A stretch of 39,594 bases of DNA from contig JACRGF010000001.1 in NCBI GenBank assembly GCA_016212395.1, forward strand, positions 1 to 39,594, read 5' to 3'. Made by a program: the position numbers and the translations under genes. Shown here in pieces: positions 14,952 through 20,520 of the stretch. The notes under the pieces were generated by a model. That model made no database searches. It was given only the letters and a program-made list of their open reading frames with translations, and was not told where the DNA came from. The DNA is from Microcaldota archaeon. GTDB lineage: Archaea; Micrarchaeota; Micrarchaeia; Burarchaeales; JACRGF01. How positions within the stretch are numbered: the stretch's first letter is position 1; every line of letters begins with the position of its first letter.

Positions 14952-15033
14952 TGTGAAGAATAAAAAAGTTTGTAATGGCTCGAACGCAAACCCTCGAACG
15001 GTTCAGAATAATAAAAAGAAAAAAGAGAAAAAA

Positions 15034-15257
15034 AGCGTAAAGAAAAGAAACGCAAAGAAAAAAAGAGAAAAAAACAACAGGAAAGAAAAAAAAAAGAAAA
15101 AAATAGCGTAAAAAGAAAAAAAAGCGTAAAGAAAAGAAACGCAAAGAAAAAAAGAGGAAAAAACAACAGGAAAGAAAAAAAAAGTAAAGAAGAGGAAAAA
15201 AAATAGCGTAAAAAGAAAACAGCGTAAAGAAAAGAAACGCAAAGAAAAAAGAAAGGG
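15034..15257 (+). repeat. A/G-rich tandem repeat, about 2.4 copies of an 89-98-bp unit
   Basis: AGCGTAAAGAAAAGAAACGCAAAGAAAAAA begins at 15034, 15123 and 15221; AACAACAGGAAAG follows in copies 1 and 2. Confidence 0.85.
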
Positions 15258-15279
15258 AAAAAAAGAATTGCTTGTTTTA

Positions 15280-15825: not shown

Positions 15826-15893
15826 TGCAAGCGTTCAACTCGCTTCCCTCAAAAACGTTTTGCCTTTGCCGGTCAAGCGGTAGAACACGTATT
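15826..15893. repeat. Direct repeat copy A (att-like): duplicate of the 3' end of the VIT-VWA gene, distal side of the AbiE cassette
   Basis: 65/68 identical to 17901-17968 by direct comparison. Minus strand still reads YVFYRLTGKGKTFLREAS-stop; the two mismatches within the codons are synonymous. Confidence 0.9.
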
Positions 15894-15944
15894 CTTATCT
15901 TATTATTACTAAGTTACATGTTTATTTGTAGTATTGTAAGTAAT

Positions 15945-15956
15945 ATATAAATAGTT
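15945..15956 (+). promoter_or_regulatory. Putative archaeal TATA box for the AbiE operon
   Basis: AATATATAAATAG about 20-30 nt upstream of ATG 15976. Confidence 0.5.
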
Positions 15957-15975
15957 TCCGTTTTATAATAATGCC

Positions 15976-16785
15976 ATGAAGCACATGAACAAGAATGAGC
16001 AGGAGATATACTTTCGCTTGGAGAAAGAAGGATTGAAGATTTTCAACGTTGAGGATTTAATCAACTTGGATTTTAGGAAGAGAGTGGTGCACGACGCGTT
16101 GACTTCGCTAGTAAAAAAACAAATTATCTCAAGGGTTAGGAGAAACGTTTATGTGCGGGCTAGCCCGTCATTGTTATACGACGCGCTTCAGCAAGTAGAA
16201 TCTCCTTTGCTGATAGCCGCCAAAGCCGCAGGAAGGCAGTATTATTTGGGGTATGCATCCGCAATGCAGGCTTATGGGGTAAGCGAGCAAATTCCTTTTA
16301 CGGTTTACGTTGCTTCGAAACAACAGAAGCGAAACTTTGATTACGGCAGGTATAGAGTGAGATTTGCCCAGCTGAGTGAAAAAAAGTTTTTCGGGGCAAG
16401 AAAAGCATTAGTAGCAGGCCAGCAAATCTGGGTTTCTAATGAGGAAAAAACGGTTGTTGATTGCGTAGACCGCGCAGAATACTGCGGCGGAGCAAGCCAT
16501 GCGTTTCTGCTCATCAAAGAATTGGCCAGGCAAAAGAAACTGGACTGGAAAAAATTGTTGAACTGCGCTTTGAAAATGGGCGGGCAAGCCTTGCTCCATA
16601 GGCTTGGATTTGTGCTTGAAAAAGTAAACTCATCAAGCAAAAAAGAGCTAATCCCTAAAAAACTAATTGCAGCGCTTGCGAAAAAAGTAAAGCCAAGCGT
16701 TTACTATTTAGAAAAGGGAGTTAAAGGAAAATTCGATAAAAAATGGCAGTTGATTGCAGGCGAGGTTGAAAAACATGGAGCGTGA
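15976..16785 (+). CDS. AbiEi-like antitoxin / winged-helix transcriptional regulator
   Basis: N-terminal wHTH (VVHDALTSLVKKQIISRVRRNVYVRAS), YYLGYASAMQAYGVSEQIP, VSNEEKTVVDCVDRAEYCGG; overlaps a nucleotidyltransferase gene. Confidence 0.85.
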   Translation: MKHMNKNEQEIYFRLEKEGLKIFNVEDLINLDFRKRVVHDALTSLVKKQIISRVRRNVYVRASPSLLYDALQQVESPLLIAAKAAGRQYYLGYASAMQAYGVSEQIPFTVYVASKQQKRNFDYGRYRVRFAQLSEKKFFGARKALVAGQQIWVSNEEKTVVDCVDRAEYCGGASHAFLLIKELARQKKLDWKKLLNCALKMGGQALLHRLGFVLEKVNSSSKKELIPKKLIAALAKKVKPSVYYLEKGVKGKFDKKWQLIAGEVEKHGA

Positions 16786-17833
16786 ATACCTCAACCAATG
16801 GCTTTTGCGGGCAAGCGCGCAAACAAAACTCGAGCAAGATTTGCTGGAGAAAAGCGCGCGCATGAGCGAAATTCTAGAATTCATTTCACGCAACAGAAAC
16901 CTGTCAATGCTGGCATTCAAAGGCGGCAGCGCGCTAAACTTTGCCTACTTGAAACAATTCAAGAGACTCTCGATAGATTTGGACTTCAACGCGATAGGAC
17001 GCAAGGACTGGCTGATGAAAATCCGCGATGAGATGATTGAACCAGCCATATACGAGATAACGAGAGGCCTCGGCTATGACATTGAACCAGATAAGAATTA
17101 CGCGTTGTACCAATACAAATTGTACTACGATAAAATGAGCGGTGGGCGGGATTGCATAAAAATAGAAATTTCTTTCCTCGACCGAGTCGCAGTATTAACT
17201 CCGATAAGAAAACTTTTTTTCTTCCCACTCTTGAATAGGGAAAGAACGCCAATTCAGGCGCTTGCGTTCGAAGAATTGCTTGCCGAAAAACTCCGGGCGT
17301 TATACACCAGAGAAAGCGGGAGAGACTTGTTCGACGTTTACAACGCAACAAAAACGCCAATAGCCCCAGCAATGAAAACGATTCTCAGAAAAACGCTTAT
17401 ATACAAGTTGTTCAGGGCAAGCGGGCCAGTAGCCTTCAAACCGAAGAAATTCATGGAAAAAATTAGAAACTTTAAAGAAAGAGAATACGAGAATGACTTG
17501 AAGCCGTTCGTTCCGGAAGAAAACTATATTGAGTTCGAAGAAGCAAAAACAGGAGTAATCAAAGCGCTTGACTTCCTGAAACAAATGGATGAAAGAGATG
17601 AAACGTTTATTGGCCTGATGCGGTGCTGTCTAGGTGAAGACGTTTCAAAACAACGCGTGCAGGAAATACGCGGAAAAGAGTTCCACCTGCGCGAGCCGTT
17701 AAGCTATTTGTTCAATGGAAGTGGGTTGCTAAGCGAAGCAGCTAGAAACACGCCGTTAACAGAAATACTGCCAGTAAGGGAACTGCCACTGCAAAAATAT
17801 TCTTGGCTGGAAAAATTTGGCTTGAAGCAATAA
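16775..17833 (+). CDS. AbiEii-like nucleotidyltransferase toxin
   Basis: MLAFKGGSALNFAYLKQFKRLSIDLDFNAIG (GGS...RlSxDlDf NTase motif), KIEISFLDRV, ELLAEKLRALYTRESGRDLFDVYN; ATG 16775 overlaps the AbiEi stop (ORF open from 16754). Confidence 0.9.
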   Translation: MEREYLNQWLLRASAQTKLEQDLLEKSARMSEILEFISRNRNLSMLAFKGGSALNFAYLKQFKRLSIDLDFNAIGRKDWLMKIRDEMIEPAIYEITRGLGYDIEPDKNYALYQYKLYYDKMSGGRDCIKIEISFLDRVAVLTPIRKLFFFPLLNRERTPIQALAFEELLAEKLRALYTRESGRDLFDVYNATKTPIAPAMKTILRKTLIYKLFRASGPVAFKPKKFMEKIRNFKEREYENDLKPFVPEENYIEFEEAKTGVIKALDFLKQMDERDETFIGLMRCCLGEDVSKQRVQEIRGKEFHLREPLSYLFNGSGLLSEAARNTPLTEILPVRELPLQKYSWLEKFGLKQ

Positions 17834-17840
17834 AGCAGAT

Positions 17841-17894
17841 TTAACTCGCTTCCCAAAGAACGTCTTCCCTTGCCAGCCAAGCAGTAGAAACACG
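17841..17894. repeat. Degenerate repeat copy B of the same gene-3'-end sequence
   Basis: AACTCGCTTCCC-AAAGAACGTCTTCCCTTGCCAGCCAAGCAGTAGAAACACG aligns to copy C; minus strand reads FYCLAGKGR against FYRLTGKGK. Confidence 0.75.
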
Positions 17895-17900
17895 CTCGAA

Positions 17901-17968
17901 TGCAAGTGTTCAACTCGCTTCCCTCAAGAACGTTTTGCCTTTGCCTGTCAAGCGGTAGAACACGTATT
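17901..17968. repeat. Direct repeat copy C (att-like), in the intact 3' end of the VIT-VWA gene
   Basis: TGCAAGTGTTCAACTCGCTTCCCTCAAGAACGTTTTGCCTTTGCCTGTCAAGCGGTAGAACACGTATT; matches 15826-15893 with three differences. Confidence 0.9.
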
Positions 17969-20465
17969 TTTTCCCGCGTTCTTCGATTTTTTCAATCATC
18001 TGCGCTTCGCTCAGCTTGTCCAAGTGCTCGACGATGGTGGACGCGTTTTTTCCAAGGCGCGCGCTCAAAAAGCTGGGAGTCCGCTCGCCTTTGTTCAACT
18101 CGCGCAAAATTTCAATGCGCGTCTCGCTCGCCAACACCTTGTGCGTCTCGACAGCACCCTGGCCCCACAAGCCAGTGCGCGTTAAAGAAATAACGACAAA
18201 AGCAACAAGAGCAACAACAACCAAGCCGCCAATAATTTCAAACGGAACTTGAATTTGCGGTTGCACGCCAGTCCTGTTTGAAGGAGGCAATGTAACGTTT
18301 GCTTTTGGCACGATTACGCTCCCTTGCCCAAGCGTCACTTGAATAGATTGCTGGGGAGTGCACACGAACACGCTCGTGCCAGCAGACAAGAACCTCGCCA
18401 TCGAATCATCCTGCAGCAGCTCCAAATAACGCGCGCTGCCGAACTCTACTTGCTCTCCAGCCTGCGCGTCCTTGCAGGAAGTGTCTTTCCACACTCCGCC
18501 CACTTCAACGAAAGTTTTTCCTTCAATCGCCTTCGTTTGCGAAGCAGTGGAAGAAGAAGCAGTTTCAGCAGCCCCATAAGAAGCGCCGAGTGCAAAAGGA
18601 GCAGCTGCAGTCGGAAGGTTAGCCATGGCGCCCTGCGCTCCAACATCACGCGTTGCCTGCTTGCCTTCACTCGTCACTACAACGTAACTAGTGTACGGCG
18701 AAGGAATTCCGTACGCGTTCGCAAGCGTTTTCACTTCCTCAACCCACTCCGCGCTCTCTCCTTCCAAAGCAATCTCGTCAAGCAAAAACCCTACTCGCTT
18801 TACAGCCCACGCGCGCTCTACAAAAGCATTTGAAGAAGATGAAGGGAAAACAACCGGATAACTCATTTTTTCCTCCTTCCCACTAATTTTCCCGCTTATT
18901 TCAACAACAGCATCACCGCTTCCGGAATACTCGCCAGCCAACACCACTTGGCTTCCCAGGAAAACATCAGGAATTCTTTTCGGAAGAAAATCAGAAGCTG
19001 AAACGCTTGAAGAATTCGCAGCAATCGAAACGCTTGCGTCAAGCAAGAGAGGGTGAGTAATGCGCTCGAAAAACTGGGTGAGCGTTGCCTCCAGCTCTGC
19101 GTCAGTAATAATGTAAGTGGGAATTCCGTCCCCGTAATCGTTCGCGAGCCTGTCAAGCAACTCGAAGTCAACGTCAGCACCTACTCCGAACGGGAAAATC
19201 TTTCCACCAGCCCCTCTGAACGAAGCAAGAATTTCCTCCTGCGAATTGCCTGCAGTATCAACGCCGTCAGTCAAGAAAACAACAAGCTGCGCCCTCCCGC
19301 CAGCAGGCTTCAACTGCGCCTTTGCCTCCGCGAGAGCAGCGCGAATGTTCGTCGAACTGTCTGCTTCAAGCGAGTCAGCAAACACCAACGCGTCCGCAAC
19401 ATTCAGCGTATTCGCGTCCTTCAACTCCGACGCAAACGATTTCACCTCGTCAGAAAAAGAAATAATGTTGAACTTGTCTTTAGAGTCCAAGCGCTTCAAC
19501 ACGAACTTTAACGCGTTCTTCGCCTGTTCTATCTTCTGCCCGCTCATGCTCCCTGAAGTGTCAATAACAAACACGACGTCCTTAGGGGTAACGTCAACAT
19601 CGCTTTCAGCCAAAGAAGGGTAAATGAACAGCAAGAAAAAGCCTTCATCCGCGCCTGCCTGCTTGTGCGCCAGCAGCTTCACGTCGTAATCCCGCTCTGT
19701 AACCCCGTAAAACAACTGGAAGTCCTTGTCAGGAATTTCAACAGAATAATAACTCACAACCGCGTTGCTGTTGCCTGCGCGCGTTACTTCAACGTCGTGA
19801 GTAGGAGAAGAAACAAAGCCAATTTTTCCGCTCGACTGAATACCAATAGTAATATTCACAGGGTCAATAGGCTGAGTAGTATAACGCTCGGTGGAAAGCG
19901 GGTAGAAAAAGTGGACAACCCCGCCGCTCTCAGCAAGCACTTGCTCGTACTCAATGATTACCTTCACTTTCTCGCTGCGCGGAAGCACAACGCTTGCAGC
20001 AAACGTGTCTTTCCCAACGTACTCAAGCAAAGACGCTTCCTTGCGCTCCAACGCGTACTGCTGGTAAAGCTCGCGCGCCTCAAGCGCGCCAAGCATTTTG
20101 CCTTCAAACGTTTTTCCATCCACGTTCAACATGAAGTTGCGCACTCCACCAGAAGGCACAGGAAAAACATACGTGCCCTCAATGTCCCGCCAGCCGTTAT
20201 TCTGGAATTCCTGCTCGACGTGCACGCGCGCTATTGAATCAGTGATATTCACAGTAACGTAGTGGTTCAAAATCAACGGGTAAGGGTCCTCGGGAACTAT
20301 TGGAACAATCATGCCGTCAGCTGAAGCAAAACCGGAAAAAGAAAGAAAAACAACAGCAAACAAGCACAAAACAAAAACTGGAAACTGAAAACCGGAAACA
20401 GAAAACAGTGAAGCTCGAAACAATTTTTCACTTGAACTCTCGCAAACTCCAGCTCGCGCATTCAT
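17910..20465 (-). CDS. Signal peptide-VIT-VWA surface protein with C-terminal TM and cytoplasmic ArsR/MarR-like winged helix (ORF open to 20501)
   Basis: VIT domain (YVTVNITDSIARVHVEQEFQNNGWRDIEGTYVFPVPSGG...), VWA MIDAS DVVFVIDTSGSMSGQKIEQAK, TM FEIIGGLVVVALVAFVVISL, wHTH VLASETRIEILRELNKGERTPSFLSARLGKNASTIVEHLDKLSEAQMIEK. Confidence 0.9.
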   Translation of the reverse strand: MNARAGVCESSSEKLFRASLFSVSGFQFPVFVLCLFAVVFLSFSGFASADGMIVPIVPEDPYPLILNHYVTVNITDSIARVHVEQEFQNNGWRDIEGTYVFPVPSGGVRNFMLNVDGKTFEGKMLGALEARELYQQYALERKEASLLEYVGKDTFAASVVLPRSEKVKVIIEYEQVLAESGGVVHFFYPLSTERYTTQPIDPVNITIGIQSSGKIGFVSSPTHDVEVTRAGNSNAVVSYYSVEIPDKDFQLFYGVTERDYDVKLLAHKQAGADEGFFLLFIYPSLAESDVDVTPKDVVFVIDTSGSMSGQKIEQAKNALKFVLKRLDSKDKFNIISFSDEVKSFASELKDANTLNVADALVFADSLEADSSTNIRAALAEAKAQLKPAGGRAQLVVFLTDGVDTAGNSQEEILASFRGAGGKIFPFGVGADVDFELLDRLANDYGDGIPTYIITDAELEATLTQFFERITHPLLLDASVSIAANSSSVSASDFLPKRIPDVFLGSQVVLAGEYSGSGDAVVEISGKISGKEEKMSYPVVFPSSSSNAFVERAWAVKRVGFLLDEIALEGESAEWVEEVKTLANAYGIPSPYTSYVVVTSEGKQATRDVGAQGAMANLPTAAAPFALGASYGAAETASSSTASQTKAIEGKTFVEVGGVWKDTSCKDAQAGEQVEFGSARYLELLQDDSMARFLSAGTSVFVCTPQQSIQVTLGQGSVIVPKANVTLPPSNRTGVQPQIQVPFEIIGGLVVVALVAFVVISLTRTGLWGQGAVETHKVLASETRIEILRELNKGERTPSFLSARLGKNASTIVEHLDKLSEAQMIEKIEERGKKYVFYRLTGKGKTFLREAS

Positions 20466-20520
20466 TCCAAACCACCAACAAAAGTTGGGCTTGTTCAACA
20501 TTTAAAACAAGATTGTTTTC

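Follow-up and report, generated by a model that had tools for sequence, protein, structure and literature searches.

The systems described so far that come closest to the locus analysed here are of three kinds. CIMEs are integrase-less remnants which keep both att sites and often occur in tandem (PMC5704250). Prophage e14 supplies the end of the icd gene, whose old end persists past the prophage as a fragment of 163 bp (PMC6379469). For restriction-modification genes, insertion with long target duplication was proposed (Nobusato et al. 2000, cited in PMC3031569 and PMC1643837). The present locus resembles a CIME in being a short island with att-like repeats at a gene 3' end, without integration genes and with tandem remnants at one site. 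Yet neither a related ICE or IME nor a recombinase is known in the genome, the islands measure 0.3 to 2 kb and hold practically only toxin-antitoxin genes, and the host is an archaeon. As with e14, the element would provide the end of a protein-coding gene and the old end would remain past the element as a near-identical repeat; e14, however, is a prophage with its own integrase, whereas here an integrase is lacking and the repeat is 68 bp long. Long target duplication, as far as it is outlined in these accounts, likewise places addiction-type genes between long, variable direct target repeats without a transposase. There the host target is duplicated; the two copies at the present locus seem to be alleles of a gene end that have diverged. 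The kind of locus is known in outline, and its host, its size and its recurrence are new.

The features of the locus are collected in Table 1. Positions refer to the window, i.e. the whole stretch of 39,594 nucleotides that was analysed.

Table 1. Features of the AbiE island and of its host gene.
Feature	Position	Strand	Remarks
Orphan copy A of the host gene's 3' end	15826-15893	(-)	19 codons including the stop, plus tail; frame and stop kept; outer boundary of the island
Imperfect palindrome upstream of abiEi	15904-15933		72% complementary; candidate (possible) AbiEi operator
TATA-box-like TATATAAATA upstream of abiEi	15944-15953	(+)	read off the sequence; putative abiEi promoter element
abiEi, predicted type IV antitoxin	15976-16785	(+)	269 aa; Pfam AbiEi_1 E 4.2e-8; PADLOC AbiEi E 2.9e-50
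abiEii, predicted nucleotidyltransferase toxin	16775-17833	(+)	Pfam AbiEii E 4.3e-23; PADLOC AbiEii E 4.1e-44
Copy C', third copy of the same gene end	17840-17894	(-)	decayed, frame-broken; in tandem behind copy C
Copy C, intact 3' end of the VIT-VWA-wHTH gene plus tail	17901-17968	(-)	inner boundary of the island
Host gene with the duplicated end	17910-20501	(-)	863 aa; VIT, von Willebrand A and C-terminal ArsR-type winged helix

A sequence-only reading of the window had described 68-bp repeats around an AbiE pair, the right copy being the intact 3' end of the VIT-VWA-wHTH gene, and realignment bore this out. Copies A and C are identical at 65 of 68 positions and form an att-like repeat pair at the gene end that comprises the VIT-VWA 3' end. 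Both encode the C-terminal peptide YVFYRLTGKGKTFLREAS followed by a stop codon. The differences are two synonymous codons (ACA/ACC and TTC/TTT), in agreement with the synonymous-only changes read before, and one base beyond the stop. The abrupt loss of homology at 15893 was found as claimed: an alignment score of 17 against a shuffle mean of 16.6 revealed no similarity to the gene body beyond copy A. In the 1.37-Mb genome A and C are the only full copies of the repeat, the sole further match being 16 bp long. We infer that the A/C repeat served as the recombination site. A third copy of the gene end, C', had been missed. It reached a local alignment score of 58, compared with 28 for the best of 5000 shuffles, and has TAA as a stop codon where the intact gene end has TGA. 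C' may record that this gene end was used once before, or that such a use failed.

Between the repeats there are abiEi and abiEii only and no integration or transfer genes. The two genes are adjacent and co-directional, with the start of abiEii overlapping the end of abiEi, which is the one-operon arrangement of AbiE. Judged by both genes, their order, overlap and family matches, the pair resembles type IV AbiE systems, and the predicted proteins are otherwise unremarkable. The statement that the interval holds an AT-rich AbiE pair and nothing else was substantiated by the Pfam and PADLOC matches and by a GC content of 0.428 for the island compared with 0.474 for the window; abiEi and abiEii rank at the 5th and 7th percentile of GC among the genes of the genome. 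No tRNA was found in the window. Protein P0001 had no relatives in GTDB genomes, and no relatives of AbiEii were found in viral contigs. Relatives of the host gene share about 50% identity and belong to the same taxonomic order, the nearest genomes being from other families of that order. None of the VIT-VWA relatives among the window proteins matched had AbiE beside it, and these relatives are too distant to act as an empty site. Elsewhere in the window, at 14990-15270, a purine-rich tract with repeated GCGTAAAGAAAAGAAACGC-like units lies between an ABC-transporter gene and a small pilin-like (TrbC/T4SS pilin) gene.

The source genome is a draft that is 89% complete. All its contigs were read and self-compared for flanking repeats, and the layout of the present locus (C3) recurred. 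At C45 a VapBC pair adjoins the 3' end of a PCC-domain gene (repeat 33/33), at C39 RelBE adjoins the 3' end of a gene named polB from its sequence (27/29), and at C1 an MNT nucleotidyltransferase gene is found in the same layout with the orphan beside RNase Z. At C46 a GNAT gene and a small ORF lie at the 5' end of a 5-FTHF cyclo-ligase gene (35/35). The flanking repeats of C3, C45, C39 and C46 are unique in the genome. Two of these loci have further peculiarities. The polB-like gene beside the RelBE island (C39:37018-40710) is one frame of 1230 aa with an intein-like insert, and at C46:5239-7623 the GNAT/small-ORF island and a second AbiE pair are direct neighbours.

For each of 1209 genes, a scan blind to toxins searched within 6 kb for a second copy of the 16 C-terminal residues with the stop in register. 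It yielded 20 matches, compared with 5 to 8 for shuffled tails. After removal of paralogous pairs and of weak matches near the threshold, four strong downstream orphans were left, C3, C45, C1 and C39, and all four enclose toxin-antitoxin-type genes. For two ATPase genes the scan placed the orphan copy of the gene's own end on the upstream side. With toxins defined by Pfam matches, such repeats accompanied 3 of 17 toxin loci and 16 of 832 other genes (P = 0.005). Adjustment by hand, in which antitoxin partners and the GNAT gene were removed from the non-toxin group and the C18 toxin was added to the toxin group, gave 4 of 17 and 11 of 827 (P = 1.3e-4). Direct repeats at C54 (DNA polymerase small subunit gene), C19 (rpoA1) and C30 were rejected as islands, being multi-copy interspersed repeats, and candidates at C18, C65 and C30 were excluded as tandem paralogues.

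The same layout was seen in relatives. In genome G004 a RidA-RelBE cassette (L208) comes after a gene that its sequence marks as CPSF-type, and the last codons of this gene are found again beyond the cassette; in G002 RelBE (L198) lies behind a regulator gene with the same gene-end layout. L191 of G004 has AbiE followed by rtcB, and the 5' end of rtcB is also present before AbiE as a 32-bp repeat (32/32). G004 moreover carries a 386-aa lipoprotein gene in this layout behind another gene; the cargo is thus not exclusively of the toxin-antitoxin type. A repeat around ribosomal protein genes in G004 and one around AbiE in G003 (L186/L269) were dropped as intergenic repeats. In G004:C2:98096-98860 a repeat with inverted TTCAGGAACCAA/TTGGTTCTGAA ends stands before L39e-L31e and again before the next gene; it is possibly a regulatory RNA element.

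The origin of the two copies was addressed by a pooled comparison of codons in six 3'-end cases from this genome and its relatives. The differences comprised 12 synonymous, 4 stop-to-stop and 4 non-synonymous codons, two of the latter at the edge of a repeat. After duplication of one host sequence at insertion, the two copies would be identical at first and the orphan would then be free to drift. If the gene copy accepts synonymous changes only and the orphan any change, the excess has a P of 2.4e-4, a value to be taken as a guide only because the cases were gathered during the work. The sequence-only reading had ascribed the synonymous divergence to past coding selection. It is the pooled cases that carry this argument; C3 by itself, with its two synonymous changes, is little proof. 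The stop codons at C45, C1, L208 and L198 differ, yet remain in register. At C45 the orphan ends in WKY-stop and the gene in WKP-stop. At C1 the final codons are AGT TAG in the orphan, whose stop overlaps that of RNase Z, and AGC TGA in the gene copy; here it is the orphan that resembles the original junction, and the present gene end has the look of a newcomer. Because the differences are mostly synonymous or stop-to-stop, the two copies were probably functional gene ends of different lineages while they diverged. If so, the element would probably have brought its own gene ending, like prophage e14 at icd.

Our preferred reading, to which we give an even chance of being right, is that the locus is an integrase-less, att-flanked mini-island of the CIME type that was integrated by recombination. 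DNA carrying abiEi-abiEii beside a foreign VIT-VWA 3' end would have recombined with the resident gene, which would now end in copy C, with copy A stranded past the toxin-antitoxin genes. In such a CIME-like history a tyrosine integrase, either supplied in trans or lost since, would have carried out site-specific recombination of the att type. An att-like island without an integrase had already been proposed from the sequence; this part of the earlier reading is retained at the strength just given, and the duplication of the tail only, the recurrence elsewhere, the mostly synonymous divergence and the lack of an integrase in the island speak for it. At C3, C39, C45, C1, L208 and L198 toxin-antitoxin cargo lies between unique repeats of a gene end, in keeping with a mini-island; C46 and L191 argue against it, being located at gene 5' ends with identical copies that are also expected from duplication in place. 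Repeat-mediated loss of a toxin-antitoxin pair would be costly, and this cost is the simplest explanation of why islands may persist mainly with such cargo.

At threshold neither a tyrosine integrase nor a serine resolvase was found in the draft genome. The repeats of different islands have no shared motif or inverted arms, hence a single integrase cannot account for all of them. In three genomes of other Micrarchaeota AbiE pairs are located near a tyrosine integrase of about 400 aa (L267, L274 and L279); these integrase-linked pairs belong to a different subfamily from protein P0002. At L276 AbiE stands alone behind an intron-containing tRNA gene, read by eye and not called by ARAGORN, and part of the tRNA 3' half is repeated beyond the cassette. 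In a further relative three integrase matches with identical scores (G009:C1:341443, 367432 and 393421) are spaced exactly 25,989 bp apart, either as a tandem integrated element or as an assembly artefact.

The chief rival of the mini-island, which we deem possible but somewhat unlikely, is homologous recombination between the resident gene and DNA from a related species, with no dedicated recombinase. A fragment consisting of the orthologous 3' part and the toxin-antitoxin genes would have crossed over in the gene body, and its other end would have joined illegitimately inside the tail of the recipient gene, which was thereby left as an orphan. Such a process accounts for the synonymous divergence, the many unrelated target genes and the lack of a shared motif and of recombinases, and also for cargo other than toxins, like RidA in L208 and the lipoprotein gene in G004. 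Yet the joint should then fall anywhere in the gene, whereas the 3'-end orphans are all about 27 to 68 bp long, and the association of AbiE with integrases and a tRNA in relatives is left unexplained. Duplication of the target in place during insertion has precedent for addiction-type genes, and it fits the identical repeats of similar length at C45, C46 and L191 better than the diverged ones. At C3, C1, L208 and L198 the copies differ almost only at synonymous or stop-to-stop codons, and differing stops in register, as seen at C45, C1, L208 and L198, are hard to reach by drift of a non-coding orphan; as an account of the locus we hold this duplication to be quite unlikely.

Very improbable in our view is a tandem VIT-VWA paralogue that decayed until nothing but the left copy survived, with AbiE inserted between the two by chance. 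The orphan tail is indeed coding-like and C' is a further decayed tandem copy. However, the tail alone is present, without a gene body past 15893, and no second VIT-VWA gene exists in the genome, so this alternative is not supported; moreover, the same coincidence would be required at C1, C39, C45, L198 and L208. Beyond the single locus, we put forward as a tentative and rather doubtful generalization an undescribed route in Micrarchaeota, by which small cassettes, mostly of toxin-antitoxin genes, may be inserted at the ends of numerous unrelated genes; each would rebuild its target gene with a foreign ending of about 30-70 bp, and neither an encoded recombinase nor a shared core motif would be involved.

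In the islands, the entry of toxin-antitoxin genes into small archaeal genomes, with no phage or plasmid genes involved, has left a record that can be traced. They also suggest that core proteins, among them PolB and a CPSF-type nuclease, have their C-termini rewritten by such entries. Each displaced ending preserves the earlier gene end as a fossil, so that the events can be put in order and donors looked for, and the long-standing question of how addiction modules move without a transposase becomes testable.

Finally, two AAA_14/DUF4143 ATPase genes of the source genome (C26:30778-32101 and C51:2484-3810; L130 and L105) were kept apart from the islands, as the orphan lies upstream of the gene itself. 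Each is preceded by a perfect copy of its own 3' end and tail (79 and 53 bp, respectively), as if single-gene units had been inserted behind an earlier copy.
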